Below the pieces are notes generated by a model that did not search any database, had not been told where the DNA came from, and was given only the letters and a program-made list of their open reading frames with translations. Both the position numbers and the translations under genes were made by a program. Positions 25,701-59,788 of a stretch of DNA of 64,000 nucleotides are shown piece after piece (the stretch's first letter is position 1; each line of letters starts with the position of its first letter). Source of the stretch: Impatiens glandulifera (taxonomy: Eukaryota; Streptophyta; Magnoliopsida; Ericales; Balsaminaceae); contig NC_061863.1 in the NCBI RefSeq assembly GCF_907164915.1, forward strand, positions 30,475,258 to 30,539,257. The letters run 5' to 3'.

Positions 25701-25708
25701 AGAGAGAG

Positions 25709-25738
25709 AACCCAGAACCCGGATTCAATTCTGGGTTC
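25709..25738. repeat. Short perfect hairpin
   Basis: GAACCCAGAA and TTCTGGGTTC form a 10-bp perfect stem around a loop of about ten bases. It lies just upstream of the dyad repeat array. Function unknown. Confidence 0.6.
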
Positions 25739-25789
25739 AGCACAAACGTCGTTAAACGGAATATAAAGATACAATATTAAGTGAAACAT

Positions 25790-26275
25790 ATTTCTCTCCA
25801 GGTGCCATGTAAAACAGAATGTAGAGATACAGTATTAAGTGAAGCATACTTCTCTCCAGGCGGCATGTAAAAAGTGAAGCATACTTCACTTCAATTAGTT
25901 TATATGCCTAGAGGTTCATGTAAAACCTCCAACACATCAATGTAAAGACATTTTAGCGTTCATGTAAAAATATTATTCATTCATGTATGTAAACCAATTG
26001 GAGAATGTGGAGAGACTGTTTACAGTGAAGCATACTTCACTCCGAACGCATGTAAAACGGAAGTGAAACATACTTCACTTTAAGCGCCATGTAAAACGGA
26101 AGTGAATCATACTTCACTTAAAGCGACATATAAAACAGAAGTGAAACATACTTCGCTCCAAGCGCCATGTAAAACGGAAGTGAAGCATACTTCACTTCAA
26201 GCCATGTAAAACAGAAGTGAAGCATACTTCTCTCCAGGTGCCATGTAAAATAGAATGTAGAGATACAATATTGAG
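25790..26275. repeat. ~41-bp dyad repeat array (AGTGAAGCATACTTCACT)
   Basis: About nine imperfect copies of a unit containing AAGTGAARCATACTTCACT followed by CCAAGCGCCATGTAAAAC. The first part is a near-perfect palindrome. The most regular stretch is 26030-26225. The outermost copies share a longer context (TTCTCTCCAGGTGCCATGTAAAA... GAATGTAGAGATACA) at both ends of the array. Confidence 0.8.
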
Positions 26276-26775
26276 TGATATGTTATGTAAAAATATCAGC
26301 CACTTCATGCTTGCCTTTCATATGTTATGTTCGTCAGCAGCCGACTGCCCAGATCTTATGCATAAGTTCCACGCTGCAGTCTTGTTTTATCTACATTCAT
26401 AGACAATAACAAATCGGGTACCCATATTTAATTGGGTCCACGGTTAATCAATCCTTTAAAGATCCATACTTGTGTTACTTTGATGGATCTCATAGTGTTT
26501 ATCTTAATAATGTTACTTGCATTAGACTCGACATCTCCCTGTCTACCTTTCGATGTGTCATTCTGTTTTGAGGATGAATTTTAATGAGGCCTTCTTGACC
26601 GTCTATTAGGTTTACGTCCAGCTGACCGACTGGATTTCCTTCTCTCAAAATTAAGCCCCCGTGACTTGTCAGTTGGCTCAACATATTTTAGTTTCTTTTT
26701 AGTTACTGACTCATCTACATCATGATTCGCTTGAGTGTCAGTTGAGGTACCCTTGACAAAACTTATAGGAGGAAG
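26276..26775. other. Spacer left of element B
   Basis: No gene is supported. A 61-codon minus-strand ORF (26499-26684) reads like a fragment of a transposon protein (phrases NPVGQLDVN, KIHPQNRMTHRKVDREM), but I cannot assign it safely. The last bases before the LTR are GGAAG (26771-26775), the presumed left target copy of element B. Confidence 0.35.
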
Positions 26776-27813
26776 TGTTAGAAAAACTAACTAAGTTAAT
26801 TTAAACCGACCAAAGTACTTAATCAGCTTCAAACTCCTTTATGTAGGTACAACTCAAGCTGCACCAGACCGGTTGAAAACTTTTGTCTCAACGATCCGGA
26901 CACAATCAAACAAACCGAATTGACTTCAAGTAAACCGGTTTGACTCCCCTCACCGGATCGGCTGAAATATAAACTATATGAAGCATCATTTCCGACTGGC
27001 TCAACATATCGAAGATCTCAAGGCCAACGGGAAAATTATTCAAAGTGATGAAATCTGTGAAGATGAAGTAATGAAGATTTCTTGGAAATACACAAAAGAA
27101 AGATCCAATATAAAGCATGAGGGAAATCTAATCATTGCAGATCTTAACAAAATGCACAAGCAACCCTCATGGTACATGCGGCTACCCTCGTGCATGGCTG
27201 CCACATGTATAAAAAGCAAGGCTACCTACTCTAGCCGGTTCGACAGACCAATCAACAGATGAGAGAGAAATATGACTGTTGTCATATTCTCTATATAAAG
27301 CAAGCCAAGAGCAGTAGAAGACACAACGCGCGCGAGCTAAAAACAACTCAGTTTCATACAATCTAGCCTAAAAGACATTCTGAGTTCATAAAGCCTTCTT
27401 GATTCAAAAGGGAAAATAGTTGTAAATGTTAAGATATCTGTGTATTTTACCTTGTGTAAAAGTATTACATCATTGTGTGAGTGGTGTAACTAACGAGCAG
27501 TAAATAAGACTCGATCGGAGTGTTTGATTGAATATTCCAGTTAGTGAATATCCTTCTCACTGTTTGAGAAGAAGGGGTGACGTAGGAGCTTCAACTCCAA
27601 ACATCCATAAAATTTGTCTTGTGTTCTTCATTTTACATTCCGGCTTACTTACTATAATCGAACCGAAACACTATTCACTCGAACCGAACCGGTTTTCTCT
27701 CTCTCTACCCTAACCGACTTCTCCTAATACCTTCCAAACCTAATCGCATACGTTGCTTCAGATTGAAACAGACATTTCCGCACTTGAACTTGGTTCAAGA
27801 GTCTGTGACAATC
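26776..27813 (+). repeat. Element B 5' LTR, first part
   Basis: Begins TGTTAG. Contains a TATA box TATATAAAG (27292-27300) and the conserved U5 block GGGGTGACGTAGGAG...AACATCCATAAAAT (27551-27612), also found in the LTRs of A and C. The LTR continues at 41269-41394 beyond the inserted element A. CAATC at 27809-27813 is the left target copy of A. Confidence 0.85.
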
Positions 27814-28402
27814 TGTAAGATAAAATTAGACCGGTTAATAGAACTTAACACAAAAAAACCTCCTATGCAGGAACAGACAAAGAACCGGACGCGTCAAATC
27901 ATTGAACCGGTTAAGAAACTCAACCGGTCAAATACCTAAACTATCAAGAAACATGACCGCACAAAGAAGGCAAGATCGGTCAAAACAAGAAGGCCGGAAA
28001 CACTAGACAGTCGCCAAGGAATAACTGGAAGCCACCGGTTAACACAAATAACCGACTAGCATAAAGAAGATACTCCGGGTATCTGTTGAGAATGATACCA
28101 AAGGAACAGACTGAACATTGCAATATCCATACAAGTCTGAGGACAATCTGCAGGCTGCAGAAGAGAGTCCTACAAGATCTTTCTACTTCAGGATAAATCA
28201 GAAAGATAATCTCCCAAGTACAGACAACTGTCTAACTGACAATTACCACATTGCGTAGAAGACAAACCTAGCCGGTTTGACCTACATATTGGAAGAACAG
28301 ACCGCCAGGTCTGAAAAGTTGACCGCCAGGTCTGAATCACTGAACTTCTGCTCAACCAATCAAATTCAAGGAAATGAAATGTGACCGTTGACACATTTCA
28401 CC

Positions 28403-28410
28403 TATAAAAG
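28403..28410 (+). promoter_or_regulatory. TATA box of element A 5' LTR
   Basis: TATAAAAG in the context CACCTATAAAAGGAGG. It is the likely promoter for the genomic RNA, since the conserved U5 block follows about 190 bp downstream. The 3' LTR has the same box at 40664-40671. Confidence 0.7.
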
Positions 28411-28590
28411 GAGGAGATGAAGAGGAGTAAACGCGGGACATAGTGGGCAATTAATTTACAAGTGATAAGATTGTGTTCTATCTCTAGAAACTTGAGTGCT
28501 AAGTTGAAGTGTGTATTTACAATTTCGGTTAAAATTGTACGGGTATTATCGAGCAGGAAATAAGTCTCGATCGGATTGTGTTTGTATTCC

Positions 28591-28663
28591 TTAGTGAATA
28601 TCCTTCTCGCGGTTTCGAGAGGAAGGGGTGACGTAGGAGTTTTATCTCCGAACATCCATAAAA
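28591..28663 (+). promoter_or_regulatory. Conserved R/U5 hairpin block of element A LTR
   Basis: CCTTCTCG...CGAGAGGAAGG forms a stem. It is followed by GGGGTGACGTAGGAG, a T-rich loop, CTCCGAACATCCATAAA. Near-identical blocks occur in LTR B (27551-27612), the A 3' LTR (40853-40925) and LTR C (53470-53534), although the rest of the B and C LTRs is unlike A. Related GACGTAGG...CCGAAC blocks are known from other plant copia LTRs. Confidence 0.75.
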
Positions 28664-29007
28664 TCTATCTTGTCACTTGCTTTCTTCTTATTTTACTTTA
28701 TTACCGATCTGCACTAACCGCCTTGACCGACTCTACATTACCTAAACCGAATTACTAAGTTACAAAAACCGACCCAACAATCTCCAAACCTATCCTACCC
28801 AAATCCGGTTCTGCCTATCCTGTGTGTGTGCTGCTTCAACCTGAAACAAACCACTTCTGTGCTTGAACCTAGTTCAAGGGTTTGTGACAGTTTGTGTAGT
28901 ATTGAAACCCCGGTGTTAATCTCTAACCGGATTAGTCACCACCTTTGAGTGAGACCCGCTAACCGGTCCAACCCCGGTCCTCCAGCCGCGACCTAGATCC
29001 TAACAAT

Positions 29008-29046: not shown

Positions 29047-30822
29047 ATGTCTTTCGATAGGCCCCCAATGCTAGAAGGTGATGAATTTGCTAACTGGAAG
29101 GCACGCATGTACCTGCATTTAATCACCATGGATGACGAAATGCAGTTCATAATAGCCGAAGGACCGATAATCATTGACAAGGATAGAAAGGATTGGATAG
29201 CTAAAGACAGGAGAAGAAATAATCTGGATAACCATGCCAGAAACCGGATCTCCAACGGTGTGGACAGAAACACGTACTACAAGATCAGAGACTGCAAAAC
29301 CGCAAAGGAAACGTGGGAAACGGTTATACAGATTCATGAGAGAAATGAAAGAGCCTAGGAAAACAAGGTAATGGTAGCTACTCAGAAGTTTGAAAGCATC
29401 AAGATGAAACCGGGAGAAACAATGAGAGAATACAGTGACTGGTTCACAGGTGTGTTAGACGAGCTAGCAACTCTTGGCAAGAGGTATGATAACAAGGAAG
29501 TCATCATGAAAGCGTTAAGATCTCTTCCAAGTGCATGGGACATAAAGACAATGGTGATGAGGGAATCAAACTGCCTAAGTAAGATGAAACTACATGATGT
29601 ATTCGAAGATCTTAAGGCATATGAGTTCGAAATGAGATCTAGGACTGAAGAAGAGGTTTCAGCCTCAACCTCAACCAGAGCATTGATCACATCCACAGAA
29701 CCTGTTGCACCTGCACCGATCAGAACCGCCGAACAGTTCACCGAGGATGCCATGGCAATGCTTGCACATAAATTTGGGAGGTTCATGAAAAGGAGCCAAC
29801 CGACAAACAACTACAACTATGGTGATACATCTAATGTAATATGCTATAATTGTAACTGTTTGGGACATTTCAAGTGGGAATGCAGAAAACCGAGGAGGGA
29901 TGACCGAAAACCGGATAATCAAAATAACCGAAATAACTATCAATAAACAGGTGAAGGAAGTGAGGTTCAAGAAGCACTGATAGCCGATGATGGAGGAAGC
30001 TTATGGGCTCACAGTGATAGTGATGATGAACTCACATGCCTAATGGCAAATGAGGAACATGTATTTGACTCTCCCTGTGAAGAATTTACTAAAGATGAGT
30101 TATATAATGCATTGAATGATATGGTAGCAGAGTATAAGAACCTACTAACTCTATTACCTAAGCAACCCAATTTTAGAGCCGACCTCATAATACCCATTCT
30201 GACCGAACCAAAGATCATACAACCTGATGAAACCCCTACCTTAGAAACTGAATTAGCACCTGAACTATCCTCTGAAACCGAACAACTCAATGAGCCAGTT
30301 CGAGAATTGACCGAGGAGGAAAATGCCCGACTCCAGTATAAAATGGCCGCATATAAGAGATCTAGTGAAATGGCAAGAAAGATGTATAGTTATAAGAGAC
30401 ACCCTTTCTGCATGTTTGGTCTAGGATACAAGAACGATAGATCCAAAAACCAAAAACCCTTAGACAAAGCAAGGATCTCAAAGGATGATCTTCCCTTTGT
30501 AAGTTTTGTCAGAAGTTCCTTAACCGCTGAAGAGGAACTAACTGCCTACTACACGGAAGAAAAACTAACCTATGTAGGTCCAACCGATTCTGAGAAATGG
30601 CTTCACCCTGAGAAAAGAAAAGCCAAACTGTTTAAAAATAGGAGAACCAATCCACAACTACATAGGACAAACCAAAGATCATCCCCACACAGAGCCTTCT
30701 TAGGAAAACAGAAAGACTCAAAACCGAGTGCAAGAAAAGTAGTTAAGACATTGACTAGAAAAGCTGTTCGGTTTGTCAAGGTCTGGATACCCAAGGGACT
30801 AATCGCATGTGGACCCAAGTAA
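29047..30822 (+). pseudogene. Element A gag, broken by in-frame stops
   Basis: A single frame runs from ATG 29047 to TAA 30820-30822, interrupted by TAG at 29356-29358 and TAA at 29944-29946. The first half is a UBN2/copia Gag domain (MLEGDEFANWKARM, ETWETVIQIHE, SLPSAWDIKTMVMRES). A CCHC zinc knuckle, CX2CX4HX4C, is at about 29851-29892 (CYNCNCLGHFKWEC). A long acidic then Lys-rich C-terminal extension ends in KVWIPKGL, shared with B and C. The extended gag and the stop before pol fit the Sirevirus lineage. Pol begins in the +1 frame just beyond. The start is the first ATG after the primer site. Confidence 0.88.
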
Positions 30823-33800
30823 ATGTGGGTACCAAATAGTTGTAAATATGTACATTTTGCAGGATTTAAAGAAACGACTAGGAAACTCTGAATGGTACTT
30901 GGATAGTGGTTGCTCCAGGCATATGACCGGGAACAACAACCTTCTAACCGATATCAGAATAGAAACCGGTGCACTAATCACCTTCAGTGACAACTCAAAA
31001 GGTAGAACTGTGGGCAAGTATAAGATTGTCCATGATAACTTGACGATTGATAATGTACTCTTAGTTGAAAACCTACGTTTTAACTTGCTAAGTATTAGTC
31101 AAATGTGTGATGCTGGATACACTGTAGAATTTCTTAAACATGCATGCCTAGTTAAGAATTCTCAAGGTACCATACTACTAACCAGAAATAAGCTAGGAAA
31201 TATCTACAAGGTAGACTGGAAAACTAAAGTAGAATATCCTGTTTGCATGATAGCCAAGACTGATTAAACCTGGCTATGGCATAAGAGACTAAACCATCTG
31301 AACATGAAAACCTTAAATTATATTCGCGGTAAAAAGCTAGTCGATGGAATTCCTGACATAGTATTTAATAAGGATAAGGTTTGTTCAGCATGTCAAATGG
31401 GTAAACAAACTAGGTCAACCTTTAAGAGTAAAGGACACATTCAATCTAACCGATGCTTAGATCTTCTTCACATGCATTTATTTGGACCGATTCAGGTCAT
31501 CAGCCTAGGAGGTATGCTTTACACTATGGTAGTTGTTGATGATTACTCTAGATATACATGGGTAATATTTCTACCATCCAAACATGAAACCGCATCAAAT
31601 TTAATTACACTGCTTAAACGTTTGCAAAATGAAAAATCAACACGCATTAATAGTATTAGAAGTGATAGAGGTACCGAATTTACAAACAGTACTTTAACTG
31701 CATTTCTTGATGAATCCGGTATTAGACACGAGTTGTCTAGTGCTAGGACTCCTCAACAAAACGGCCTGGCCGAGAGAAAAAACCGAACTCTCAAGGAAGC
31801 CGCACGGTCCATGATAGCCGATTCGAGCATTGCTCAAAAATTTTGGGCTGAGACTATCAATACTGCATGTTATACACAAAACCGGTCTTTAATTAACAAG
31901 TTTCACAACAAAACACCTTATGAGGTATATTTTGATAGAGTTCTCAACCTCAAGTATCTTAAGATTTTCGGTTGTAAATGCTACATTCATATAAATGGTA
32001 AAACATATCTATTTGCTTTTGATGCAAAAACCGATATTGGGATCATGTTAGGTTACTCAGCAGTGAGTAAAGCATATAGAGTATATAACAATAGAACCTT
32101 AACCGTGGAGGAATCACTTCATGTTGTTTTCGATGAATCAGTTGAAAGTAATACTGCATCATGCTTTGATCTACACAACAGACTGGAAAATAACAATATC
32201 CACTCTGATAGTGAAGATGAGATTCCGTTTTTCAGGCGGTTTGTCCATGACCAAATGGGTAATGATGAAACCCAACCGGATCAAGCTGTCCCACGACAGG
32301 AAGTTGACACTTTGGTCCAAACCGAGGAAATCGGTCGGTCTGACATCCTTGCTCAGCCTACCGATATGTTTAGCCTTGATCAAGTAAACGGTAATTCGGT
32401 AGACATCCCTGAACCGAACTTCAAAAGGAACACTAAGCATCCTCCTGAGCTAATTATAGGTGATCCTTCAGAACCTGTTCGAACTAGGCGTCAAATTCTG
32501 GAGGAATACTTCAATTCCGCCTTTATATCCCAGATTGAGCCAAAAAGAGTGGATGAAGCATTGTCAGATCCGGATTGGATCTTGGGAATGCAAGAAGAGT
32601 TAAACCAATTCGAGAGTAATAAAGTCTGGTACCTAGTCCTTAGACCAAAAGATCAATCGATCATAGGAACAAGATGGGTATTTAGAAATAAACTCAATGA
32701 AGACGGTTTGGTCACGAGGAACAAAGCCAAATTAGTGGCACAATGATACAAACAGGAAGAAGGCATTGATTTTGAAGAATTATTTGCCCATGTAGCTAGG
32801 ATTGAGGCTATTAGGATTTTTCTAGCCTTTGTTGCCTTCAAAAATTTTAAGGTTTTCCAAATGGATGTTAAAAGTGCATTTTTGAATGGTGACCTACGTG
32901 AAGAGGTATATGTTGAACAACCACCCGGTTTCAAAAATGCTGAATTACCCAACCATGTATACCGATTAAACAAAGCTTTATACGGTCTAAAGCAAGCTCC
33001 TAGAGCCAGGTATGACACACTAACCGCATTTTTGTTAAAACATGACTTCACCATCGGTTCGGTGGATAAAACATTATTTAAGTTTGAGAAGAAGGAACAC
33101 ATCCTACTTGTTCAAATTTATGTAGATGATATCATCTTCGGTTCAACCGATCCTAAGCTATGTGATAAATTCTCAACCCTGATGACTAACAAATTTGAAA
33201 TGAGTATGATGGGAGAATTAAGTTTCTTTCTAGGCCTTCAGGTTAAGCAACTCGAAGAAGGAACTTTCATTAGCCAACCCAAGTACACTAAGGAACTGTT
33301 AAAGAAATTTGGGATGGATACATGCTCCTCAGCCGCTACTCCAATGAGCTCATCGGTCAAACTGGACAAAGATGATGAGGGTCAAGCAGTGGACCTGACC
33401 GCTTACCGAGGCATCATCGGCTCTCTTTTATACTTGACAGCAAGTAGACCGGATATTCTATTTGCAGTCGGTGTGTGTGGAAGATTCCAAGCCAATCCAA
33501 AACAGTCTCACTACACAACCGTAAAGCAAATCTTGAAATACCTTAAGGGAACTTCTGATGCCGACTTGTGGTATCCAAAGGACTCATCTTTTAACCTAAC
33601 GAATTATTCAGATGCAGACTATGCAGGTTGCAAGGTTGATAGAAAAAGCACCAGCGGAACATGCCAATTCCTAGGTGATCGGCTTGTTTTATGGCACAGA
33701 AAGAAATAAACATCAGTTGCCACATCAACCGCAGAAGCTGAATACCTGGCAGCCGGAAGCTGCTGTTCACAACTTTTTTGGATCCAAAAACAACTGAAGG

Positions 33801-34084
33801 ATTTCGGTGTCATAGCCGAAGAATCTCCAATCTTCTGTGACAACACAAGTGCAATAGTAATCACCTACAACCCGGTTGTACACTCTAGAACCAAGCACAT
33901 TAACATAAGGCACCACTTCATTCGGGAACATGTCATGCTGAAGCATATCCGGCTGGAATACGTATCGACAGATCAACAAGTAGCCGATATCTTCACAAAG
34001 CCCCTGCAGGAAGCTAAGTTTTCTCAATTTAGACTCACACTCGGTTTGACCGATATTAATCAAATCATCCCTAAGGATGCTTAA
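30809..34084 (+). pseudogene. Element A pol (protease, integrase, RT, RNase H), broken
   Basis: One frame covers the whole copia pol, with in-frame stops at 31265-31267 (TAA), 32744-32746 (TGA) and 33707-33709 (TAA), ending at TAA 34082-34084. Visible in order: protease DSGCSRHMTG (about 30903); the integrase HHCC zinc region (WHKRLNHLN... CSACQMGK); the integrase core with SDRGTEF and LAERKNRT; RT with the catalytic YVDD (about 33120); and RNase H with DADYAG and the terminal DIFTKPLQEAKF block. The first integrase catalytic Asp, normally in HMDLFGP, is His here (CAT, 31475-31477). Domain order protease-integrase-RT-RNaseH is diagnostic for Ty1/copia. No frameshift was seen within pol. Confidence 0.92.
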
Positions 34085-34597
34085 AAAGGGAAATCGGTTC
34101 GGACAGTTAAAACCGGTAGTTCCTCCTAAATTGTCGGAATTCAAATTTACCAAGGTATCTATGGAAGAATCGCCTGGTCCATCAGTCAGAGTAAACAGAC
34201 CGGTTATTTAGTGCATGCACCAAATAACCGTATCGGGACGAACAACTGATAACTTACCGGTTCGGAAATAATTTATCTTAGATTATTTGGCCTTCGAACA
34301 AAAGTGGAATAATTACCTGCGTTTAAACTTATCTGTCCTGAAATATTACCTTTTCAAAGTAAAATGGTTACACCTCAAAAGACGTGAAGATTTGATATCT
34401 TTCATGGTCCAGGTCTATGACCAACATCCTAGGCTGTAGATATGCTTATTTCATGCAAAATACTTTATCCTATGGTTAATAGACATTATTACATATGACA
34501 CATTGGATAATAAGATCTTCTCTCCACTAGTATATAAGTTAAGCAAACCTTAAACAAAACAATCACAAAATATAAATCATTCTCTCACTAAGACAAA
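34085..34597 (+). promoter_or_regulatory. Element A post-pol region and X1 promoter
   Basis: 513 bp without an ORF between pol and X1. TATATAAG at 34531-34538 lies 59 bp before the X1 ATG and is followed by an A-rich leader, as expected of a core promoter. A repeated CAAATAACCG/ACCGGTTATTT dyad is at about 34199-34230. This suggests X1 is transcribed from its own promoter; the transcript is inferred. Confidence 0.55.
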
Positions 34598-35359
34598 ATG
34601 TCTCAGTTTCCAAACATCCTTCAAGTGGACTTCAAATCTGCTCTAAGTACTGAACACTACGATGTCTTCAAGATGATCAAGTCACTTGAATACACTGGTT
34701 TCCAACACTTTCTAGATGACAAACATGTCATCTATTCTGAATCTGTCCTGGAGTTCTTCTACAATGTCAGGGTTTTTCGTGGAACTCCTCACTTTGACAC
34801 ACATATTCAGTCAAAAGTGGGAGGAATCGTATTCGACTTTATCGAAAATGACTTTGCAAGATGCTTTGACCTACCAAAGCAAGGGCTGACCGACCTTAAT
34901 GTACCGGCTGAACTAAAAGACGAGATCTCCTTAGCCTTTGCCCGGTCAAATCAGCCAGTTAATGACCACGGTGCCAAGTCACTATTGAAAGCTGAATACC
35001 AGCTTCTCAACGACGTGATCGGTCGAGGCATCTTGGGAAGGGATGTGACCAACACGTATTGTACCGCTGCCTTCAACATCATGACCGCTATAACCACTAG
35101 CACACCGGTCAACTGGTCAAGGGTTCTGTTCGACGTCCTAACTTGGATGATTGGCATTCGAACAGTCGGTCTCGTTCCTCAACTAAGCTGTCTGCTTCTG
35201 GAGCTTGGGGTTCCAACATGTCCGGGCGAAGGGTTGAACCAAGCCCAGGTACTCACCAAGGAAGTCACCGATTCATTTTATGAGCGGTTTGAAAAGGCTT
35301 GGAAGAGGAGGAACCGCCACATTAACTCCAACGGTCACGCCAACTCTAGCGGATATTAA
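34598..35359 (+). CDS. Accessory ORF X1 of element A (253 aa), first of three tandem paralogues
   Basis: This is an intact ORF of unknown function. It shares with X2, X3 and the element C ORF an N-terminal domain marked by LQVDF (residues 8-12), a LEFF motif, a LPKQG motif and PVNWSRVLF (about residue 170). X1 ends soon after this domain, with a short basic tail (WKRRNRHIN). No signal peptide, membrane segment, zinc finger or nuclease motif is evident; the protein is predicted soluble and mostly helical. It lies 514 bp after pol and has its own TATA box at 34531. ORFs in this position in Sireviruses are usually called env-like, but nothing envelope-like is visible. The start ATG follows an A-rich leader in good context. 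Confidence 0.75.
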   Translation: MSQFPNILQVDFKSALSTEHYDVFKMIKSLEYTGFQHFLDDKHVIYSESVLEFFYNVRVFRGTPHFDTHIQSKVGGIVFDFIENDFARCFDLPKQGLTDLNVPAELKDEISLAFARSNQPVNDHGAKSLLKAEYQLLNDVIGRGILGRDVTNTYCTAAFNIMTAITTSTPVNWSRVLFDVLTWMIGIRTVGLVPQLSCLLLELGVPTCPGEGLNQAQVLTKEVTDSFYERFEKAWKRRNRHINSNGHANSSGY

Positions 35360-35800
35360 GTCACTCCTTCTTACAACCGGTCATTTTTCTGTACGCACCG
35401 GTTTTCTCTTTGCTCAACTTCCTTATGATCATCTCGGCTTAGTTTATGTTATCTTCGGTTTCAACCGGTTACTTTTCTTATAACATCCGTCATTAATGAA
35501 AAGTAACGTTCAATTAATGAAGTAACTCCCAACTACATGAGTAATTACTATCCAACTAACTTGGTTACTTCTCAACTAGATTCTTACCTCGAGCTCCGTA
35601 GCTGGTCAAAAGTAACCTCTTTCCAATACGCTTTGAAAACATAAATATTCTCTTCACTAATAAGACAAAACTGATCTTCAACATTAAATGATGATATTTT
35701 GCCTCCAAAACCGGATCTATATAAGGAGCCATCCTCTAATCAACTTAACACATCTCAAAACAAAGTTTCTTGAATTTTCACTCTTAGCAAAGTTAGAATC
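35360..35800 (+). promoter_or_regulatory. X1-X2 spacer with X2 promoter
   Basis: No ORF. TATATAAG at 35718-35725, identical to the X1 TATA box, lies 75 bp before the X2 ATG and is followed by an A/C-rich leader. Repeated AGTAAC/GTTACT words occur at about 35500-35610. Confidence 0.55.
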
Positions 35801-36502
35801 ATGCCGAACCGAACTCTAGGAAACTTCCTAAGCGTCGACTTCGATTCATGTATGGAACATTGGGATCTGGAAACCAAAGAACTCATGTTTGAATCTCTCA
35901 TCGACACCGGTCTTCGTACTTTTCTCGAAGAATTCGGTCCTATACTCCTTGATGATGTCAAGACCTTCTTCAGAAGTGCTTGTATAAGAGGAAACTACAT
36001 TGTTTCCACAGTGAGAGATCACACTTTCTGGCTAGATGAAGCCGAGTTTGCTCAAATATTCAACCTACCCACAGAAGGGTTTTCTGACTTTCCAACACAG
36101 GTGGGAAGCGACGCAACCGACTACTCGGAAATGTTCTCTAGAACTGATGTACCGATGGAGAACTACGGGTTAAAAACCCGCCTTGCTCACCACATCCAAC
36201 TCCTCCATGAGATTGTTAACCGATCTATCATATGTCAATCTCCGAACCAGCGCTACTCTAAGAAAATATTTGACATGATGACCTACATCGTTAGCAATAC
36301 GCCTATCAATTGGTCATCGGTCATCTTCCAAAATTTGAAAACCATGGTGCTGACCAAGAAAGGTCTCGGTTATGCTCCTCACATAAGTCGGCTCATTCTC
36401 AAGTACCGTCCAGAATTTGGACCGGGCACACCGGCATCTTTTTCGAACATTCTTGATATGGATGGGGTGGAAGAAAAGTTTTCTAGGGTAGTTATTACAT
36501 AA
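35801..36502 (+). CDS. Accessory ORF X2 of element A (233 aa), second paralogue
   Basis: An intact ORF of unknown function, paralogous to X1 and X3. Matching landmarks: LSVDF near the N-terminus, a KTFFRSA motif in place of LEFF, FNLPTEGF, a conserved MENYGLKT segment (X1 has VNDHGAKS), and PINWSSVIFQNL. It consists of the shared domain only and ends with a short tail. No signal peptide or membrane helix is seen. It has its own TATA box at 35718. The three copies are clearly diverged, so the duplications predate this insertion, and each has kept an open frame of similar length, which suggests past selection. Confidence 0.74.
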   Translation: MPNRTLGNFLSVDFDSCMEHWDLETKELMFESLIDTGLRTFLEEFGPILLDDVKTFFRSACIRGNYIVSTVRDHTFWLDEAEFAQIFNLPTEGFSDFPTQVGSDATDYSEMFSRTDVPMENYGLKTRLAHHIQLLHEIVNRSIICQSPNQRYSKKIFDMMTYIVSNTPINWSSVIFQNLKTMVLTKKGLGYAPHISRLILKYRPEFGPGTPASFSNILDMDGVEEKFSRVVIT

Positions 36503-37081
36503 GTTGTATCATTCTATCTTATGTATGTCTATTTTTCACACCGATCTACTTTTTGGTTTCTATCCTGTACTATTCCTTCAATTAAAATCTATTTCAGTTT
36601 AATAACCGGGTCAAAAGTTGCAAAATCTGAACAACCATCCAACTAACCGGTCAATATCAATAACTCACTTCGTCTTCACTGAAAATCCGGTTAAAGTCAT
36701 AAACCGCATCCTCGCGGTTAATAACTCACATCTCTTCATAAACGGCTTTGAAAAAGGACCGCTTCATTAAAACTGAAATCAAAAGTCCACTCGAAATTTT
36801 TGGAGGGAAATTTCCCGCCCAAAAACTCCCGCTCAAACATCCCGCCTTTGAGTTGCCGCCTTTTTGTTTGCCGCCTTTGATTTGCCGCACAATCCACTTG
36901 GAGGGAAAATTCCCGCCTAAAGATGATGGGACGGTTTGCGACAGTTGGGTTTCCAAACCGCACCTATAAAAAAGGTCCTTCGCCATTTTATTTCATTCTT
37001 ACGCGAAACGGCTTTCTCTCTCTAGCTCTCAAACTCTCTCAAAGCGGTTTTTCTCTTGCTTTCTTGATTCAATCATCAACA
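36503..37081 (+). promoter_or_regulatory. X2-X3 spacer with X3 promoter
   Basis: No supported ORF. About 36800-36915 is a short GC-rich inverted and direct repeat tract with TTTGAGTTGCCGCC-like words and inverted copies of GGAGGGAAA/TTCCCGCC. TATAAAAAA at 36965-36973, in the same CACCTATAAAA context as the LTR promoter, lies 109 bp before the X3 ATG and is followed by a TC-rich leader (about 37010-37065), typical of plant 5' UTRs. Confidence 0.55.
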
Positions 37082-39714
37082 ATGGATCGTGATTCTGCAT
37101 TATTCAAACACATCATCCAGGTAGACTTTGAAGAAATCAGGGAAAACGGTTCAGCTCCGGCAAAGCAAGTTTTGTCCCGGATCTCCGAGGCCGGTCTCGA
37201 ATACTTCCTAGGTGGTCCGTTTGTTCTATACAAAGAAGTGGTTGAAGAATTCTTTAAAACCGCATCTCTCTCCGGCAGAACAATAACCGCAACCGTCGGC
37301 GGTCAACAGTTCGACATAACCGAAGAGTCGGTTGCAGAAATCCTACGCCTACCAACAGAGGGACGCAACATTTCGATGGATCTAAATCGAGAAACCTTCG
37401 AGGCGGCTTGCCAGGTTCTCTCGGCAACCGCGGTTCCGGTAGAAGTCTCCGGAAAAAAATCAACACTGCGCCAGAATACATACCGCTATGTGACATCTTC
37501 ACCAAGTCGGTCCAGGCGAGAGGGGGAAATTTCGACAATCTCACCAAGGCAAAAATCGAGATGTTTGTCGGTTTACTAAACGACATAAATATTAACTGGG
37601 CAAAGGAGGTTTTCAACAAACTAAAAGAAATGGTGAAACCGGATTCCACCCGGTCATGGGGATACGCCATCCCACTCGGGAAGATCATGCTCCACCACAA
37701 CATCAACACCAGTCCGGGTGTTATTCTTCCTTCAAGCAAAATCATAAGGTCTCGCCAATTCCTGGTAAAGAAGAAGCCGGCCTTCGGTTCTACAGGTGGC
37801 CGAAGGAAGAAGTCTGCCGCAAAGAAACCGGCTCCGGTAAAGGGCAGATCTGGGAGCAAGAAGGACAAACAACCGATAGAATTCGCAGATCCGCCCTCTG
37901 AAACGCAAAATGAAGACGATTCGGCCTCCAGCTCCGAACGAACGGCTTCACATAATACCGAAGAAAATCTGTCCGGTAAAGAAAAAGGACCGATAGAAGA
38001 GGAACAATCGGTCAGTCTTGAACCTGAAGAAACCGGTGTAGATGGCCCTGGGGAGGAAGACGTTCACAATAACAACGACCAGGAGGTGGCCGAGAATATA
38101 GTGCGCAGAATCATGGAGGAAATCGATCTGCAGGCTCACGAGGCATCCGGAGTATACTGTGAGTGGTTCCGGTACCGGTGTGACAAATTCTTCAAACACA
38201 TGTTACCGGGACTAACCACTGGACAAAGATTCGAAAGGTTGATGGAGATAGAGGAGGACGTCATCAACCTAACAAAAGCCAAGGATCCCAGCAAAGCCTT
38301 GGACCGACACGCAATAGTGGAACCGCGTGCTCGGCTACAAAAGCTAGCCGAACATATTAGAAAACTTACAGAAATGTATATTCCAGGAACACCGAAGTCT
38401 CAACTACAACTCTTGGTGTTGGATATACTTGCGGTAAAGAAAGGAGAGTTCATCGACGGAGTGGCGCGGCTTGAAGCGGTGCACGAACAACAAAATACAA
38501 TGCACTCTCCGCGTCATGAGAATGTTGACGGTCAAAATCAAGGCGATAATGAGACAGCCTTCCCTCTAGCGGATCAGGGTATCAACGTAACCGACGAAAG
38601 GACAAAGACTCCTCTCACCGGCCCACGCGCATCTGTTCAAACCGGGGATTCAGAACCGGCCGTCACAGAAGAAAGAGTCAAGTCTCTCATTCAAGAGTTT
38701 TTCAACGACGCGGTTAAGCCCTGGAAGAAGAAAGCTAAGAGGGTCGCGGTTCAAGCATTCAGGATGGCCGAAACAACAAGGGATGATCTTGGGAAGGCAA
38801 ACGAGCGGATCACGTCGGTCGAAACCAACTACCGTGACGCCGATGCACTGTACGACGCTCATCTTAACCGTACCATAGCCTTGGAAGATACGACTTCAAA
38901 GTTGGTGGATGACTTGGAACGGTTTCAAGAGAAGACCGAGCAACGGCTTACAAAGGTCGATGAGGACCTGGGGCGGTCAAGCACCGAAGCCGGTTCAACA
39001 CTCGATAGAGTCATAAGCCTCGAAGAAAAGAATGCAAGCCTTGAGGAACGAAACACCAAACTTGAAGCCGATCTCAAGGCGGTCACCGAACAGGTGAATG
39101 AACTGATAAAGGCCAAGCTGGCTACCGATAAAACGGTTGAGGAGGCAAACGCTGAGGCGGCTAAGAAACTTCAGGATGCGCTGGATGAGGAGAACCGGAA
39201 AAAGAAGGAGGCACCTCGGTCTGATGCGAACTTCAACGAACTCTTACAGATATTAACGGCCAAAAATCCGGAACTCGCAAAATCCATAGCGGCTCGAGAA
39301 GCCAAGCAGGCGCAGCGGTTCAACGTTGAGAAACAAAGGTTCGACGAATACGAAAAGATTCACAAGAAGTCCAAGGCGGCTACATCCTCTTCAGCTCCGG
39401 CAACACAAAAAAGGAAAGTTCCCTCAAGGAGGGCTCAAGTCACCGAGATGCCGGGCAGAATCACTGAGACAATTGTTGATCCTCCACTGAACCCGGCTTT
39501 GCAAACCAAGGATGACTTCGAAGAGGATCTCGAGCCGCCACCTACAAGACAGCGAGTTTTCGAAGCAGTTCCAGTCAGAACGGTCAGTCAACAGTTCTCT
39601 CCTCACACGGACACCACGGGAGCTGGAGGTTCCTCTTCAAGGCCGGCTCAACCGGCTAAGGGACAACCAACAGATGAACTGATGGAAGACTTCCTGCCAT
39701 CCAAATTGAACTAA
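37082..39714 (+). pseudogene. Accessory ORF X3 of element A, domain plus long coiled-coil tail, with a -1 frame break
   Basis: This is the third paralogue. The first frame runs from ATG 37082 to a stop at 37577-37579, and the second, in the -1 frame, runs on to TAA 39712-39714. The switch falls at or just after a run of seven A (37454-37460), so the cause is either a one-base indel or ribosomal slippage. The N-terminal landmarks match X1/X2: IIQVDF, EEFFKTA, LRLPTEG and, after the break, ININWAKEVFNKL. Unlike X1/X2 it continues with a Lys/Pro basic linker (KKKPAFGSTGGRRKK), a long acidic segment, an extended heptad-rich coiled coil (about 38690-39400) and a basic, Pro/Ser-rich end. No membrane segment is seen. 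It is richer in G+C than its flanks. Function unknown; a nucleic-acid or Gag partner role is only a guess. Confidence 0.72.
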
Positions 39715-40073: not shown

Positions 40074-41263
40074 TGTTAGATAAAATTAGACCGGTTAATA
40101 GAACTTAACACAAACAAACCTCCTATGCAGGAACAGACAAAGAACCGGACCGGTCAAATCACTGAACCGGTTAAGAAACTCAACCGGTCAAATACCTAAA
40201 CTGTCCAGAAACATGACCGCACAAAGAAGGCAAGATCGGTCAAAACAAGAAGGCCGGAAACACTAGACAGTCGCCAAGTAATAACCGGAAGCCATCCGGT
40301 TAACACAAATAACCGACCAGCATAAAGAAGATACTTTGGGTATCTGTTGAGAATGATACCAAAGGAATAGACTGAACATTGCCATATCCATACAAGTCTG
40401 AGGACAGTCTGCAGGCTGCAGAAGACAGTCCTACAAGATTTTTCTACTTCAGGATAAATCAGAAAGACAATCTCCCAAGTACAGACAACTGTCTAACCGA
40501 CAGTTACCACATTGAGTAAAAGACAAACCTAGCCGGTTTGACCTACATATTGGAAGAACAGACCGCCAAGTCTGAAAAGTTGACCGCCAGGTCTGAATCA
40601 CTGAACCTCTGCTCAACCAATCAAATTCAAGGAAATGAAATGTGACCGTTGACACATTTCACCTATAAAAGGAGGAGCTGAAGAGGAGTAAACGCGGGAC
40701 ATAGTTGACAATTAATTTACAAGTGATAAGATTGTGTTCTATCTCTAGAAAGCTTGAGTGCTAAGTTGAAGTGTGTATTTACAATTTCGGTTAAAATTGT
40801 ACGGGTATTATCGAGCAGGAAATAAGTCTCGATCGGATTGTGTTTGTATTCCTTAGTGAATATCCTTCTCGCGGTTTCGAGAGGAAGGGGTGACATAGGA
40901 GTTTTATCTCCGAACATCCATAAAATCTATCTTGTCACTTGCTTTCTGCTTATTTTACTTTATTACCAATCTACACTAACCGCCTTGACCGACTCTACAT
41001 TACCTAAACCGAATTACTAAGTTACAAAAACTGACCCAACAATCTCCAAACCTATCCTACCCAAATCCGGTTCTATCCTATATGTGTGCTGCTTCAACCT
41101 GAAACAAACCACTTCCGCGCTTGAACCTAGTTCAAGGGTTTGTGACAGTTTGTGTAGTATTGAAACCCCGGTGTTAATCTTTAACCGGATTAATCACCAC
41201 CTTTGAGTGAGACGCGCTAACCGGTCCAACCCCGGTCCTCCAGCCGAGACCTAAATCCTAACA
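40074..41263 (+). repeat. Element A 3' LTR
   Basis: Starts TGTTAGATAAAATTAGACC and ends AATCCTAACA. Near-identical to 27814-29005. TATA box at 40664-40671, U5 block at 40853-40925 (with TGACATAGG for TGACGTAGG). Followed by the right CAATC target copy. Confidence 0.94.
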
Positions 41264-41394
41264 CAATCTGTGTAGTGTTAAGAGTGGTTCTAGTCTTTAA
41301 CTGGATTAATTCTAGTGTCTTGTGTTGTTTTGTGTTGTAAGCGATCTACCTTTATCCGGACCCCGGTCTACTATCGACGATCCCGATCCTAACA
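41264..41394 (+). repeat. Element B 5' LTR, second part
   Basis: CAATC (41264-41268) is the right target copy of element A. The remaining 126 bp complete LTR B and end GATCCTAACA, just before a primer-binding site. Together with 26776-27813 this gives an LTR of about 1.16 kb, similar to A. Confidence 0.85.
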
Positions 41395-41396
41395 AG

Positions 41397-41409
41397 TGGT
41401 ATCAGAGCC
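41397..41409 (+). promoter_or_regulatory. Primer-binding site of element B
   Basis: TGGTATCAGAGCC, the same initiator-Met tRNA site as in element A, two bases after the LTR end. Confidence 0.93.
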
Positions 41410-41441
41410 AGGTTTCTTAACACTCAAGCAACCGAAAGAAG

Positions 41442-47480: not shown

Positions 47481-48417
47481 GATAACAGGAAGGAAGCATG
47501 GAGAATACTCTTTTGAGTATACAGTTCAGAAGATCAACAATAGATGCTGCCACTTTAAAAGAATAAATATTTTTCTATGTTTTTGTAGTAAAATACTTTT
47601 GGTTCTAAAGATCTGAAAATATTTGGTTATTCATATTTGTACTTGTACAAAATGAGAGGTAAAAATTTCTTTGAAAGTAGAGATACTCTTAAGACGAATG
47701 ACCTTAATCGGTCTATTAGACAAGGGTGTCTAAAAGAAATAGTCTGTACTTAGACGTATTTTTGCTCACAATCTATACATCTAAGCCTATATGTCGTGTT
47801 TTCAAACCATCGCGGTTAGACGTACACGTCTAATAGACGTTAAACGTTTTTACATCATGAGAAAGAGGATGCTCACGTTTAACCAAACACACGTCTAACA
47901 CATGGTGTTTATGCGTAATTAGACGTACACGTCTAATAGACATTAGACGTATTCTTTACAACACGTAATTAGACGTATGCGTCTATTGGACCCATGCGTC
48001 TAATAGACGTTTAGTTTTATAGATTTGTGCAGTAAGAAAAACGTCTAACTACGTGCCTTTTAGACTGATCAAGGACAGTTGTCCGCGTGAGGAGATATCT
48101 GATTTTCACGCTCAAACATCAAAACAGTCATCTCATAATAACATGAAGACACGTGTCTCTCAAGTTAAAAGAGAATGATTGATATACCCTCATTATAATG
48201 ATGACTCTTTGGAAAGGACGTCTAACTTTAAATGATAGGCCATACCCCTAGGAAAAACGACGGTTATCTTGTATAATTTCTCATAGTCTACATAAGGACA
48301 TTTTTGCATGAGATTGAAAGCTTTTTATCTCTCAAGATTTCTAAGAACCCTAAATTTCTTTGTCTTTCTCTCTCAAAAATCTGTGATAATCTTGTGTCTG
48401 TTCATACTCTACTGAAA
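47481..48417 (+). promoter_or_regulatory. Element C pre-X leader with AGACGT dyads and G-box
   Basis: No ORF. 47740-48070 contains a cluster of TTAGACGT...ACGTCTAA dyads related to the LTR C minisatellite. AGACACGTGTCT is at 48147-48158. TATAAT-like (48272) and ACATAAGG (48290) words lie 120-145 bp before the X ATG, a weak promoter candidate. Confidence 0.5.
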
Positions 48418-51400
48418 ATGGTGAACAAGAGAATCACGCTGGGTCATTATACTTTGCAGGTAGATTTTCAGTCAGTCTACACTTTCAATCAGCCGGAAGT
48501 AGTAGATATGTTTAGAACCCCCGAGTATTCCGGTCTCGGAAAATATCTTAGCGGTCCTTTCATCTTTTACGAGAAGGAAGTTCGAGAGTTCTTTAAATCT
48601 GCAACAATGGTGGACGATTTCATCTTAGCGACTGTAAACAGGATGAAAATATCTTTCGACGAAGCCTTGTACGCGGAGTTCTTCGAACTTCCTTCAGAGG
48701 GTCATACTTTCAACAGGGATCTGTCACCGAAGTATGGGAAGACATGAAGAAGGTTCTATTTGCCGATGGCTCGGCGATTCATCTGAATGGAAGTAAGAAA
48801 TTCCTCAAACCACAGTTTATTTTGCTAAATGATGTGGTGGCAAAAGCGCTTCAGGGGAAGGCTAGTTCTTTCAATCTCTATAGTTAAGATCGATTTGACT
48901 ATGTGTGTGCCATTTCAAAGGGGATCCAGGTCAATTGGGCATTAACATTATTTCAGAATCTTTGTTTCTCCATCAATAAGGAGAACAAAGAAAGTATAAT
49001 GTGTGCTGCACAACTAAGCCGTTTGTTGGAGCATCTGGGGGTTCCGATGGGTGAACCTCAACCGATCAACTCAAATAGGGTGTATAATATATTCACAGTC
49101 GCCGACACTCTTGTTAGAATGAAGAATCTTAAGGAATCGCCTTCGGGTGCTTCTAGCCAACAGACAGGTGGAAAATCGATTATCAGATCTAAACAACAAG
49201 CCGCTTCCATCATGTCAACGGGAGCAAAGATATCCAAAACAGTCAACGAATTAGAGGCTAGTTGTACTAGCCTAAGAAGCTCTTCAAAGAAGGATTCTAA
49301 AACTGTTGATTCCAGAATCAGGCAAGATCCAATTGAACTTGCCACCATTCCCACGTCTCCCCTGTTTCTGGCTGCCAGTCAGATGAGGAGATCTTCAAGG
49401 TTATATGTCTCAAAAGGTGACAAGTCAAAGGCGCCCCGCGCGTCTAAATCGATGAAGGCTTCATCAAAGGTAACATTTTCTAAATCCTTGGCCGATGTGC
49501 CCAAGTTTGATGTTCCTGTGATGGAACAAGATAAATCTGTTTTTATTCCTGAAAAGGAATCTGCTGAAGGGCCTGCTGTTGAGTCAGCTGGTCCAAATAT
49601 TGAGGATATTGATAGGACTGAGTCTCCTGTTCAACAACCTAATCAAGTAGTCGCTGGTGCTACAGAATTTGCCCAACCAGAACAAGGTGCAGTCCTTACC
49701 CTTGTTGCTGGTGATAATGCTGAAAATGCTTCCTCTGCTTCTGTCAGAGAGCCTTCCTCCACTAATCCCATTTCAAAAGATTCAATAGTAACCGGGAAAG
49801 TCACTCGAGGCGAGCTTCCTCCTAGACTCTTCAAGAAACCACCATCTGCTTATGAATTGATGCGTTCCACAAGGCAGTCGTTTGGAATTATTTTTGGTGA
49901 ACCAAGACCCTCTCCAAAACCAGTTGAGGTTGTTGGAAAAGGAAAAGACGTTGTAACTGAAGAAAGTGAAGATGTTTCTGAGGCAACATGCATTGTTGAC
50001 CTCATGATGAATAAAGTCAAGGCCATAGCTGCTAAGAAGATGGAATTTTTTTACTATTGGATCCAGAACAGATTATCTATCCAGTATGATGAGGTCATCA
50101 CGGGTTCAGGAATACGTACTCAATGGCGTAAGTTTGTAGCAGATGAAAATAAGGTTCTTAAATGGGCTATAACTCCGCATGTGTCGGAAGCTTTAAAAAG
50201 AAAAGATCTTATCAAAGCTTGTCTGAGAGGAAGAGCTTTATTCCCCATCCTTGAAGCTAGAAAAGCTAATTTTAACCCTATTGAGAAAGGTGTTGAAGTG
50301 GAAGTGAAAGTGAAAGTCTTAAAGATGTTAGACAAGATCATGGCTGACTATCTTTCTGTAGTCACTAGATATGTTGATGGAGCTAACTGCTTAGGAGTTA
50401 GCTATTTTGGTATTTTCTCCAATGAAGACAAGCCAATGGATGTCTTAGCTGATCATGCTAATACAGAAGAGCAAGTTGCTGCTCTACTGATAGAGTTTGG
50501 AAATCTTTCTGCAGAAGAAAGAAGTTTACTGGCTCAACCCGTTGTCGAGCAAAATAAGGAACCCGTTCAAGAGAATCCATCCCTAGAAGAAGAAGAAGAA
50601 GAGTTCATTCAAGAGCCTGAATAAGCTCTTGTGACTCAAGAAGAAGATCTTGTTAAAGAGCCTGTCCAAGCTCTTGTAACTCAAGAAGAAGAAATTGTTG
50701 TGGAGATCGTTCAAACTCCAAATGAAAAAGAGGTTGTGATATCCCATGTTGTCAGAATAGAGGAAGCTCAAGATTAGGAGGTTGAAGTTAGTCAACTAGG
50801 GAGTATCAGATCTGAGGGGGAACCTTCAAATGACAAAGATGCCGAAGAAGAGAGTTCCTCTTCTAAGGGGGAACAAGATCAAAATGCTAGAACTGTCAAG
50901 CCTTTACCATTTCCCGATATTAATGTTGGTAACCTCCATGAAAATATTAACTATCCTCTTCACAGCAAGGGAAATCTGTATGAAAGACTTCAGAGAGCAG
51001 AAAGGGAGCTAGAAGAAGAAGAGAGGAATAAAACTAGAAATGAGTGTGAGAAGGATGAACCGGAGCAATCCCTACAGATTCACACCGAAATTAACCCCAT
51101 TCAGAGCATGGCAGCAGAATCACAAGATGATTCATCTAACGAAGGTACCTCTACGGATGGTACCAAGCTTCTAAAATCTATGACTTCTCTGCTTTCCTCT
51201 CTTTAGACGAATGTGATAGCTATGGGATCAAATATGGTAAAGATTTTGAAGACCCAGAAAGAGGACAGAAAAGAAGTTGTTGAATGTGTCAAAATCCTTA
51301 AAGAATTGGACAATACACTGAAGAAGAATAAGTATAAGACTCATGTTTCAAATTCAAATTTCTTCAAATTTGAAAAGTAGCTCTTCAGTCGACAATCGTA

Positions 51401-51895
51401 AATGACGAGTCCTGAAAGACAAATCAATCTTGATAATCATCGTGAGGTCATGGAGTCAATGAAATTATTCAAGAATCAGCTAGTTGAAATTCAAGGAAGC
51501 ATGAGAAGAACTGATGCTGAAAGATTGGAGTATGCTGACTCCATTGCAAGGAAATTTCAAGAGAAAGAGAATGCTAAAATTGATGTTGAAAGAGAACAGA
51601 CTTGTATCACTCAAGGTGAGCCCAGTAGAAGAGGTGACGGTGTATCAATCGGCACCAATCTAAGCGTGCACCAACCAATGATGAAAATCCAAGGCCAACC
51701 AAAAGAGGCGGTGGTAGAAGCGGTAGTGATCGCGGAGGTCCTACTAGTGGCGGTGATCGAGGTGGGAGATCCAGTGGAAGCGGTCGTGGTGGTCGTGCTC
51801 TTCCTCCGTTTCAAAACCTGCTAACTGGTGAAGGGATGAGCTATGAAGGAACTCGTTTCCCCATCGATCCTCGAGTGAAAAGGGAAGAACAATAA
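48418..51895 (+). pseudogene. Element C accessory X-type ORF, long form, broken
   Basis: ATG 48418 opens the shared X domain: LQVDFQSV, REFFKSA and FELPSEG. The frame then hits TGA at 48745-48747 and the homology resumes in the -1 frame, with a TAA near 48886 and GIQVNWALTLFQNL beyond. A 573-codon open stretch (48903-50624) holds a Ser/Lys-rich linker and a second helical region. Further stops are at 50622-50624, 50775-50777 and about 51205. A coiled-coil-like part lies at 51402-51600, and an RGG/SGG-rich segment, in another frame, at about 51695-51820 precedes the end at TAA 51893-51895. It is the closest relative of X3 in architecture. RGG segments often bind RNA, so RNA binding is a reasonable inference. 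Confidence 0.72.
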
Positions 51896-52075
51896 TCTCT
51901 TTTCTCTTACATTGTTAAGTTTTAAACTATGTTTCTTTGACTATGTTTGTGGAATACTGGTTTTTGAAAGTGGTTATGTGTGAGGAATGAACAAGTTTTA
52001 CCCTGCATTTATATGATGAATGCTTAATTTGTTATCTATGCAAAGTTTCAATCTCATCAACAAAAAGGGAGAAAT
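51896..52075 (+). other. Element C 3' UTR and polypurine tract
   Basis: Short non-coding stretch ending in AAAAAGGGAGAAAT (about 52062-52075), the same polypurine tract as element A, directly before the TGTTAG of the 3' LTR. Confidence 0.75.
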
Positions 52076-59600: not shown

Positions 59601-59788
59601 TTAGAGCAACCGAGAGCGGGGACTGTGGTGTATTCATGCTTATGTATATGGAATACTTGACTACTAACTTTGGTGTATAGAAGGTGACCTCCGATGAAAT
59701 GGAGTTTTTTAGACAAAAGATGGCGGTCAGGTTATTCCATCAAATTATCAAACCTAGGTATTGTAATCTTGAATTGAATTTTGGATAG
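56629..59788 (+). pseudogene. MULE-borne Ulp1-like (C48 peptidase) gene with DUF1985 domain, degenerate
   Basis: ATG 56629 starts a frame that is broken near 56770 and again near 57080. The N-terminal part matches the plant DUF1985 domain (HELVFGMKEYALVTGLNF, ILHMVEDEEAFLRFPWG). A TAG (57854-57856) and a TAG at about 58511 break the charged, repetitive middle section, which has probable introns (donors near 58054 and 58203; acceptors before 58150 and 58346). The C-terminal Ulp1 protease spans 59101-59788 with His (GNKHWVLCV), Asp (VYDCDS) and Cys (SGDCGVFMLMY) catalytic residues, but two small frame changes lie between the Asp and Cys motifs (about 59565-59595), and a TAG follows at about 59678. 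Ulp1 proteases cleave SUMO from proteins; MULE copies are usually of unknown role. Confidence 0.85.

Follow-up and report, generated by a model that had tools for sequence, protein, structure and literature searches.

Several plant long terminal repeat (LTR) retrotransposons are described as carrying extra open reading frames (ORFs) past pol. The subject here is a 64,000-nucleotide stretch of Impatiens glandulifera DNA (RefSeq assembly GCF_907164915.1, contig NC_061863.1, positions 30,475,258 to 30,539,257 of the forward strand), called the window, which holds a copia-type retrotransposon with three homologous ORFs, X1, X2 and X3, in tandem past pol. The three ORFs probably make up a tandem family of accessory genes in a Ty1/copia retrotransposon of Sirevirus-like (SIRE) type, and a mechanism is proposed for them below. 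Published work is cited by PubMed Central number and from excerpts of each paper.

In SIRE elements, an extra sense ORF follows pol in 74%, and these ORFs are divided into 19 groups that share little or no similarity (PMC6317226). The survey counted ORFs of at least 250 codons (PMC6317226), and X2, at 233 residues, would therefore escape it. The SIRE/Sirevirus eORF-3'F, also termed 'env-like', is highly divergent and has a coiled coil, as is the case here (PMC6317226; MASiVEdb, PMC3414828). The SIRE genes are heterogeneous, whereas the element in the window has three homologous genes, two of them tailless (PMC6317226).

The sunflower Athila aORF, in sense orientation and at the 3' end of its element, partly resembles PF20167, a family which the same paper relates to the ATHILA ORF-1 family PF03078 (PMC11728184). 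The X genes are likewise PF20167-related and in sense orientation at the 3' end. Athila is a Ty3/gypsy element with one such ORF reported (PMC11728184); the element in the window is Ty1/copia and has three, none of which reaches the Pfam cut-off. Grande gene23 (Gomez-Orte et al. 2013, title in PMC11963269, summarised in PMC7264820) is an accessory gene past pol that has its own promoter and encodes a nuclear protein. Unlike the X trio it is antisense and single, and the two are likened by description only (PMC7264820). The Medicago elements Mtr67 and Mtr60 also have more than one extra ORF past pol per element (PMC2533021). Both are gypsy elements, the five ORFs of Mtr67 are on the complementary strand, and the excerpt mentions no homology among an element's own ORFs (PMC2533021).

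Homology of X1, X2 and X3

Judged by pairwise alignment, X1, X2 and X3 are homologous tandem paralogues in one copia-type element (Table 1). The X1-X2 local alignment scores 244, compared with a shuffled mean of 31.7 (standard deviation 5.0), and none of 500 shuffles is as high. The X3 pieces X3n and X3c score 105 (X1-X3n), 114 (X2-X3n), 59 (X1-X3c) and 80 (X2-X3c) against about 28 when shuffled, again with 0 of 500 in each case. The window's DUF1985 ORF was the negative control in this pairwise test and gave no outstanding score. A tblastn search across the window finds X at four places, namely X1, X2, X3 and a further gene, X4, in a second (outer) element. Identity among the X homologues within one element is 26-33%. 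One ancestral X-domain gene has given rise to three in tandem, two of which are domain-only (X1 and X2) and one long-tailed (X3).

X3 as a whole spans 37082-39714. It begins with an ATG at 37082 and, in the window copy, changes frame near 37.47 kb, within the domain. In its tail, one 40-residue block carries a net charge of +12 and another one of -11 (charge scan), and there is a proline-free coiled-coil-like region of about 164 residues (crude heptad scan). The longest stop-free run is 255 codons, versus a maximum of 214 in 500 single-base shuffles of 34085-37094.

The original prediction, made from the letters of the window, had described the three ORFs as tandem paralogues in one copia element, and the five pairwise scores, none of them reached in 500 shuffles, bear this out. 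The coordinates and lengths that it gave for X1 and X2 (253 and 233 residues) hold, and the basic stretch, acidic stretch and long coiled coil that it saw in X3 are recovered by the crude charge and heptad scan. Its list of shared landmarks needs one correction, as the first motif is (Q/S)VDF and not (L/S)VDF, while the homology itself stands. Its statement that all three kept long frames applies to X1 and X2, which are longer than in shuffled sequence, but not to X3, whose frame is broken in the window copy.

Table 1. Features of the nested elements, in window coordinates
Feature	Position	Strand	Basis and remarks
X1, stand-alone X domain, 253 residues	34598..35359	+	Single frame; PF20167 E 0.0018, below cut-off; dN/dS 0.16
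X2, stand-alone X domain, 233 residues	35801..36502	+	Single frame; PF20167 E 0.027, below cut-off; dN/dS 0.16
X3 X domain, first part	37082..37471	+	Shuffle-tested homology, tblastn; dN/dS 0.35
X3 X domain, second part, other frame in window copy	37474..37770	+	Shuffle-tested homology; dN/dS 0.21
X3 tail: basic stretch, acidic stretch, middle region, coiled-coil-like region 38722-39213	37771..39714	+	Heptad/charge scan; dN/dS 0.52
TATA-type site, 67 bp before X1 ATG	34531..34538	+	Pattern in 39/39 copies; exact 8-mer identity 1.00 in 38 other copies
TATA-type site, 83 bp before X2 ATG	35718..35725	+	Pattern in 39/40 copies; exact 8-mer conserved no better than surroundings
TATA-type site, 117 bp before X3 ATG	36965..36972	+	Pattern in 37/37 copies; exact 8-mer identity 0.81
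Inner copia-type element, 5' LTR	27814..29005	+	96.1% identity to 40074-41263; CAATC flanks; TATA-type site at 28403
Inner element, gag-pol region	29371..34084	+	Retrotran_gag_2 8.1e-11, RVT_2 4.9e-45; interrupted in window copy, stops between frames
Inner element, 3' LTR	40074..41263	+	LTR pair alignment
X4, single X-domain accessory gene of outer element, broken in window copy	48409..50624	+	X3n-X4n score 141 vs shuffled mean 26.3, 0/500; multicopy

The trio in the host genome

The host genome (653.9 Mb, 1110 contigs) was searched with X1 DNA, and the best 40 of 2248 candidate places were scored. These match X1 across 758 or 759 of its 759 bases at 93-100% identity. The 5.8-kb X region was then compared between the window and 39 other insertions. 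If a part is counted as present at 90% of its length or more, all 40 insertions have X1, 38 have X2, 35 have the X3 domain and 34 the X3 tail. X1, X2 and the X3 domain are found together in 35 insertions (incomplete are L012, L027, L033, L038 and L042). The family is a multicopy repeat, and the trio is a regular part of it. The X3 domain segment is free of internal stops in 7 of 35 copies, and in one of these the frame runs for 707 codons before it meets a stop.

In eight of the 37 other copies (L027, L029, L032, L037, L038, L039, L043 and L046), X2 has just 78-81% identity to that of the window. X1 of the same eight is 93-94% identical to the window's, and the X3 domain, measured in six, 89-92%. 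The eight divergent X2 copies form a second X2 haplotype, seven of them having 93-96% identity to that of L027. Because X2 diverges while X1 and the X3 domain stay close in the same copies, X2 has probably been swapped as a block in part of the family, by recombination between subfamilies.

Selection was measured as the ratio of nonsynonymous to synonymous substitution (dN/dS). Stop and gapped codons were skipped, and pairs with fewer than 60 comparable codons or a dS of 0.02 or less were dropped. The median pairwise dN/dS is 0.16 for X1 (779 of 780 pairs), 0.16 for X2 (702 of 703), 0.35 for the first part of the X3 domain (594 of 595), 0.21 for the second part (589 of 595) and 0.52 for the X3 tail (560 of 561). 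These values are raised because insertions decay neutrally once landed. The suggestion in the original prediction that the genes were selected in active ancestors agrees with these medians, which at 0.16-0.52 are not near 1, the value that it had named as refuting.

Singleton single-base variants give ratios of 0.44 for X1, 0.66 for X2, 0.68 and 0.45 for the two X3 domain parts and 0.68 for the tail. Variants in at least four copies give 0.10 for X1 (62 synonymous, 20 nonsynonymous), 0.06 for X2 (112 synonymous, 24 nonsynonymous), 0.22 and 0.12 for the X3 domain parts and 0.44 for the tail. That the singleton ratios lie above those of shared variants is in line with neutral decay after landing.

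Reverse transcriptase (RT) was the control. Of 20 fetched regions plus the window, 18 rows remained once two short matches had been left out and a further region had yielded no match. RT has a dN/dS of 0.13 on these rows (0.05 for variants in at least three copies). On the same rows, X1 has 0.20 (shared variants 0.12) and X2 has 0.15 (0.06). In a 16-row control, the second part of the X3 domain has 0.22 (shared variants 0.13) and the X3 tail 0.49 (0.41). From this same-row comparison, X1 and X2 are conserved nearly to the level of RT and X3 more weakly. While the family spread, purifying selection on X1 and X2 was close to that on RT, and on X3 it was weaker.

Candidate internal promoters

An internal promoter for the Sirevirus third gene has been proposed, without conclusive identification (PMC2829016). 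The locus has one TATA-type site ahead of each X ORF, an arrangement that suggests three internal promoters. On its sense strand the inner element has four copies of the motif CTATAWAWR, one in each LTR (28402 and 40663), one 84 bp ahead of X2 and one 118 bp ahead of X3; its antisense strand has none. The site upstream of X1 has the looser form TATAWAWR, 67 bp before the ATG. By chance, TATAWAWR falls between -150 and -41 in 90, 45 and 2 per 1000 dinucleotide shuffles of the 400-bp stretches upstream of X1, X2 and X3, respectively.

The distance from site to ATG is near-fixed across copies, at -56 to -67 for X1, -82 to -90 for X2 and -115 to -125 for X3. The exact X1 8-mer is intact in all 38 other copies compared and ranks 1 of 143. 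The predicted leaders have no upstream ATG in 37 of 39 (X1), 39 of 39 (X2) and 35 of 37 (X3) copies. The case for internal promoters is better here than in the earlier Sirevirus proposal (PMC2829016), though it is still one made from sequence.

Relatives of the X domain

By profile score, X is a distant relative of PF20167 (Transposase_32) and not a member. The curated cut-off of that family is 45 bits; X1 scores 18.6 bits and X2 14.8 bits, both below it. The best match, 26.9 bits (E 5.1e-6), belongs to the X3 domain of another copy and is still below the cut-off. E values are 5e-5 and 2.5e-5 for the X3 domain of two further copies, 0.0011 for the 707-codon frame of a fourth and 0.17-0.18 for the window's first X3 part. 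None of six reversed or shuffled X controls matches PF20167, and the X4 pieces give no match to it.

Other searches returned no relative. In the protein database, X1 drew 239 candidates, none at E 0.01, and alignment A1 drew 3402, none at E 1; the same database is rich in plant copia RTs (8000 candidates scored in the RT search, best 120 listed). Viral contigs searched with X2 and genome contigs searched with X1 contained no relative. The PDB sequence search gave no convincing match for X1, alignment A4 or the second X3 reading frame (37474-39711), and profiles of the plant mobile domain and DUF1985 did not match X1, X2 or the X3 pieces. A relationship of X to plant-mobile-domain/DUF1985 proteins was rejected, as its hhalign result against the window's DUF1985 was matched by 4 of 200 shuffles and 3 of 6 unrelated ORFs.

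Proposed mechanism and alternatives

Each X gene would be transcribed from its own TATA promoter, giving three short mRNAs besides gag-pol, a step for which the sites described above speak. The products would be soluble, non-envelope proteins. In X3, the coiled coil may serve for oligomerisation and the basic stretch for contact with nucleic acid or chromatin. X3 would be the scaffold of a soluble accessory complex, and X1 and X2, which are under constraint along the length of the domain, would attach to X3 or to some other conserved partner. The low dN/dS of X1 and X2 argues against fast host-driven change within the family and for a conserved partner.

That such a complex acts in replication or nuclear steps is proposed tentatively, as likelier than an independent anti-silencing or a movement/envelope role. 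A broader picture, possible but doubtful, is an accessory regulon like that of complex retroviruses, in which three paralogues, each with an internal promoter of its own, act as subunits of a single complex and the element depends on two of them as much as on RT. The primate lentivirus genes vpr and vpx are also paralogous accessory genes in one retroelement; the proteins are unrelated, and the comparison is an analogy only.

Several results weigh against reading the stretch as a selected accessory gene family with promoters of its own. The 40 insertions, window included, are those most like the window's X1 in a single genome, with elements lacking X1 uncounted, and they are recently related, so agreement between copies is only partly independent. 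The X1 frame is open in 20 of 40 copies, that of X2 in 16 of 38, and 9 copies have both open, as would be expected of decaying insertions. The first part of the X3 domain has a dN/dS of 0.49 in the 16-row control and 0.43 for shared variants. The interval from -150 to -41 was picked after inspection, and the same interval upstream of X4 has no TATAWAWR site. The inner element has eight TATAWAWR sites on its sense strand; beyond the five sites named, these are one in pol (31990) and an overlapping pair past X3 (39804 and 39806). The exact X2 8-mer is intact in 44% of copies (rank 70 of 143), and that of X3 in 81% (rank 30 of 143), which is moderate conservation. The LTR-type hexamer ACCGGT is 7x denser in the window's spacers than in coding sequence (7 in 1533 bp versus 6 in 9162 bp, p 0.00096), but across 34 copies the densities are 3.38 per kb in spacers and 1.68 in X ORFs, a weak difference. 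An AlphaFold2 model of X1 (seven-row alignment) has a mean predicted local distance difference test score of 47.6 and a predicted template modelling score of 0.28, too low for fold comparison.

An alternative is that the X genes are independent counter-silencing factors, each blocking one host step, with duplication providing separate targets. Plant mobile domain proteins of transposons have been suggested to counter silencing, VANC21 being a DNA-transposon example (PMC8616336), and the basic stretch of X3 would fit such a role. This reading is nonetheless unlikely, as within the family X1 and X2 show conservation (dN/dS 0.16 for each) and not fast change, and the X proteins have neither a plant-mobile-domain match nor a DUF1985 likeness that withstands its control. 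The usual name of the Sirevirus third gene implies envelope-like or movement proteins. Sirevirus ENV-like genes are characterised by transmembrane and coiled-coil domains (PMC3414828), and the X ORFs share with them the sense orientation past pol and, in X3, a coiled-coil-like region. A crude Kyte-Doolittle scan of X1, X2 and X3 finds no 19-residue window above 1.54 and no clear transmembrane segment, and two of the three genes are domain-only; an envelope or movement role is quite improbable.

The X ORFs could instead be expressed by splicing of LTR-driven RNA, or be exons of one gene, without internal promoters. For other plant elements, splicing has been predicted (BAGY2, Athila) or suppression of a stop codon described (SIRE1) (PMC2829016). 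A crude splice-acceptor scan places acceptor-like sites solely in the X1-X2 spacer, two in number, one of them ending 14 bp before the X2 ATG; at the threshold used there is none in the spacers preceding X1 and X3. Every one of the three ORFs has an ATG of its own, a few residues ahead of (Q/S)VDF, and in-frame stops lie shortly upstream of the X1 and X2 ATGs, so that expression of this kind does not seem likely. It is very improbable that ordinary decay explains the locus, with the ORFs as chance frames or a relic without a selected role. The window copy is defective in pol and X3, and closed X1 and X2 frames are common among the copies, but dN/dS, the shared-variant counts and the conserved arrangement all speak against it.

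The nested elements and the rest of the window

The inner element is 13.4 kb long and has CAATC on either flank. Its LTR pair differs by 41 mismatches and 3 gap openings across 1194 columns (96.1% identity). At a substitution rate of 1.3e-8 per site and year, this divergence corresponds to an age of about 1.5 million years. Its gag and RT are copia-type (PF14223, 8.1e-11; PF07727, 4.9e-45). At the primer binding site position, directly after the 5' LTR, TGGTATCAGAGC begins at 29008 and presumably pairs with tRNA-Met. A tRNA-Met primer is common to most copia groups and hence is not SIRE-specific (PMC6317226). Several copies of the polypurine tract AGGGGGAG are a mark of the Sirevirus lineage; no exact AGGGGGAG was present on the sense strand at 27-54.5 kb, and AAAAAGGGAGAAATTG was found at 39881 and 40060, before the 3' LTR. 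Palindromic CGG-CCG boxes in the LTR and ahead of the third gene are another mark of that lineage; AACCGG/CCGGTT was dense in the window's LTRs and spacers, with the spacer excess of ACCGGT only twofold across 34 copies.

The inner element is nested in the 5' LTR of the outer copia-type element, whose gag is at 41442 and whose 3' LTR starts near 52079. The outer LTRs (25501-27812 plus 41264-41420, versus 51901-54300) barely match, with best pieces of 75.9% over 87 bp and 79.2% over 48 bp. Because they hardly match, the outer element looks like a recombinant between LTR families. A minisatellite with a 54-bp period lies in its 3' LTR (52256-52742), and the flank to the left of the nested pair has 39-bp tandem repeats (26049-26280).

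X4 of the outer element is multicopy, as the best 40 of 1383 candidate places were scored in a host genome search. Within 48304-51824, X4 ends in a coiled-coil-like stretch and a Gly/Arg-rich tail in another frame. At three X4 loci (the window's and two others, about 1.5 kb on each side), X1 and X2 match the X4 domain only, barring one chance-level hit (E 0.24). Single-X and triple-X forms seem to coexist in one genome, the full pol-X4 spacer being seen in the window only. On the order of duplication, quartets from the window favour X2+X3 (68 and 53), and a tree with other copies favours X3+X4 (71, with just 111 residues of X4). Silent sites are near saturation, and the trees, at 53-71% support, disagree on the relative age of the single-X and triple-X forms.

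Two further candidates were set aside. A second domain common to the X3 and X4 tails is too weak, at 14 of 1000 shuffles for whole tails and 43 and 65 of 1000 for parts. The idea that X evolves much faster than pol (X3 versus X4 dN of 0.73 against 0.17) was dropped, as the outer element is maybe recombinant and selection within the family is strong.

Elsewhere in the window, 4510-7862 contains a transposase ORF (Transposase_21 8.6e-92, DUF4218, Transpos_assoc) followed by DUF4216, which we take to be CACTA-type. The region 56778-62218 has DUF1985 and Ulp1-type protease ORFs, with a MULE transposase and SWIM finger adjoining on the opposite strand, and this group is probably Mutator-like. A pair of long direct repeats (2-1138 and 13387-14552, 92.6% identity) is probably the LTRs of another element. 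At 20918-22413, a PIN_6 domain is divided between two ORFs, in what we assume to resemble a NOB1-type host gene.

Novelty and significance

The open-licence literature searched contains no recognised report of tandem paralogous accessory ORFs in Sireviruses or in a copia element, and no triplication with a TATA-type site before each copy was met there. The original prediction had spoken of an undescribed system. This was too strong for the domain, a distant PF20167 relative by profile score in a position where 74% of SIRE elements have an extra ORF (PMC6317226), but the tandem triplication with TATA-type sites is unmatched in the literature searched. The triplication with these sites would be new; an extra ORF past pol, several extra ORFs and an accessory gene with its own promoter had been reported.

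A domain screen of plant LTR elements reports no gain of domains in copia-type elements (PMC9289625). X is below the Pfam cut-off and could escape such screens. The trio is also material for testing the idea of an internal promoter in Sireviruses (PMC2829016). The function of the SIRE third gene has been questioned, since the sequences look unrelated between elements (PMC6317226). The X trio shows that ORFs within a single element can be homologous at an identity as low as 26-33%. The presence of three homologues in one family of dozens of insertions, two of them near the constraint of RT, argues for a function in this family.

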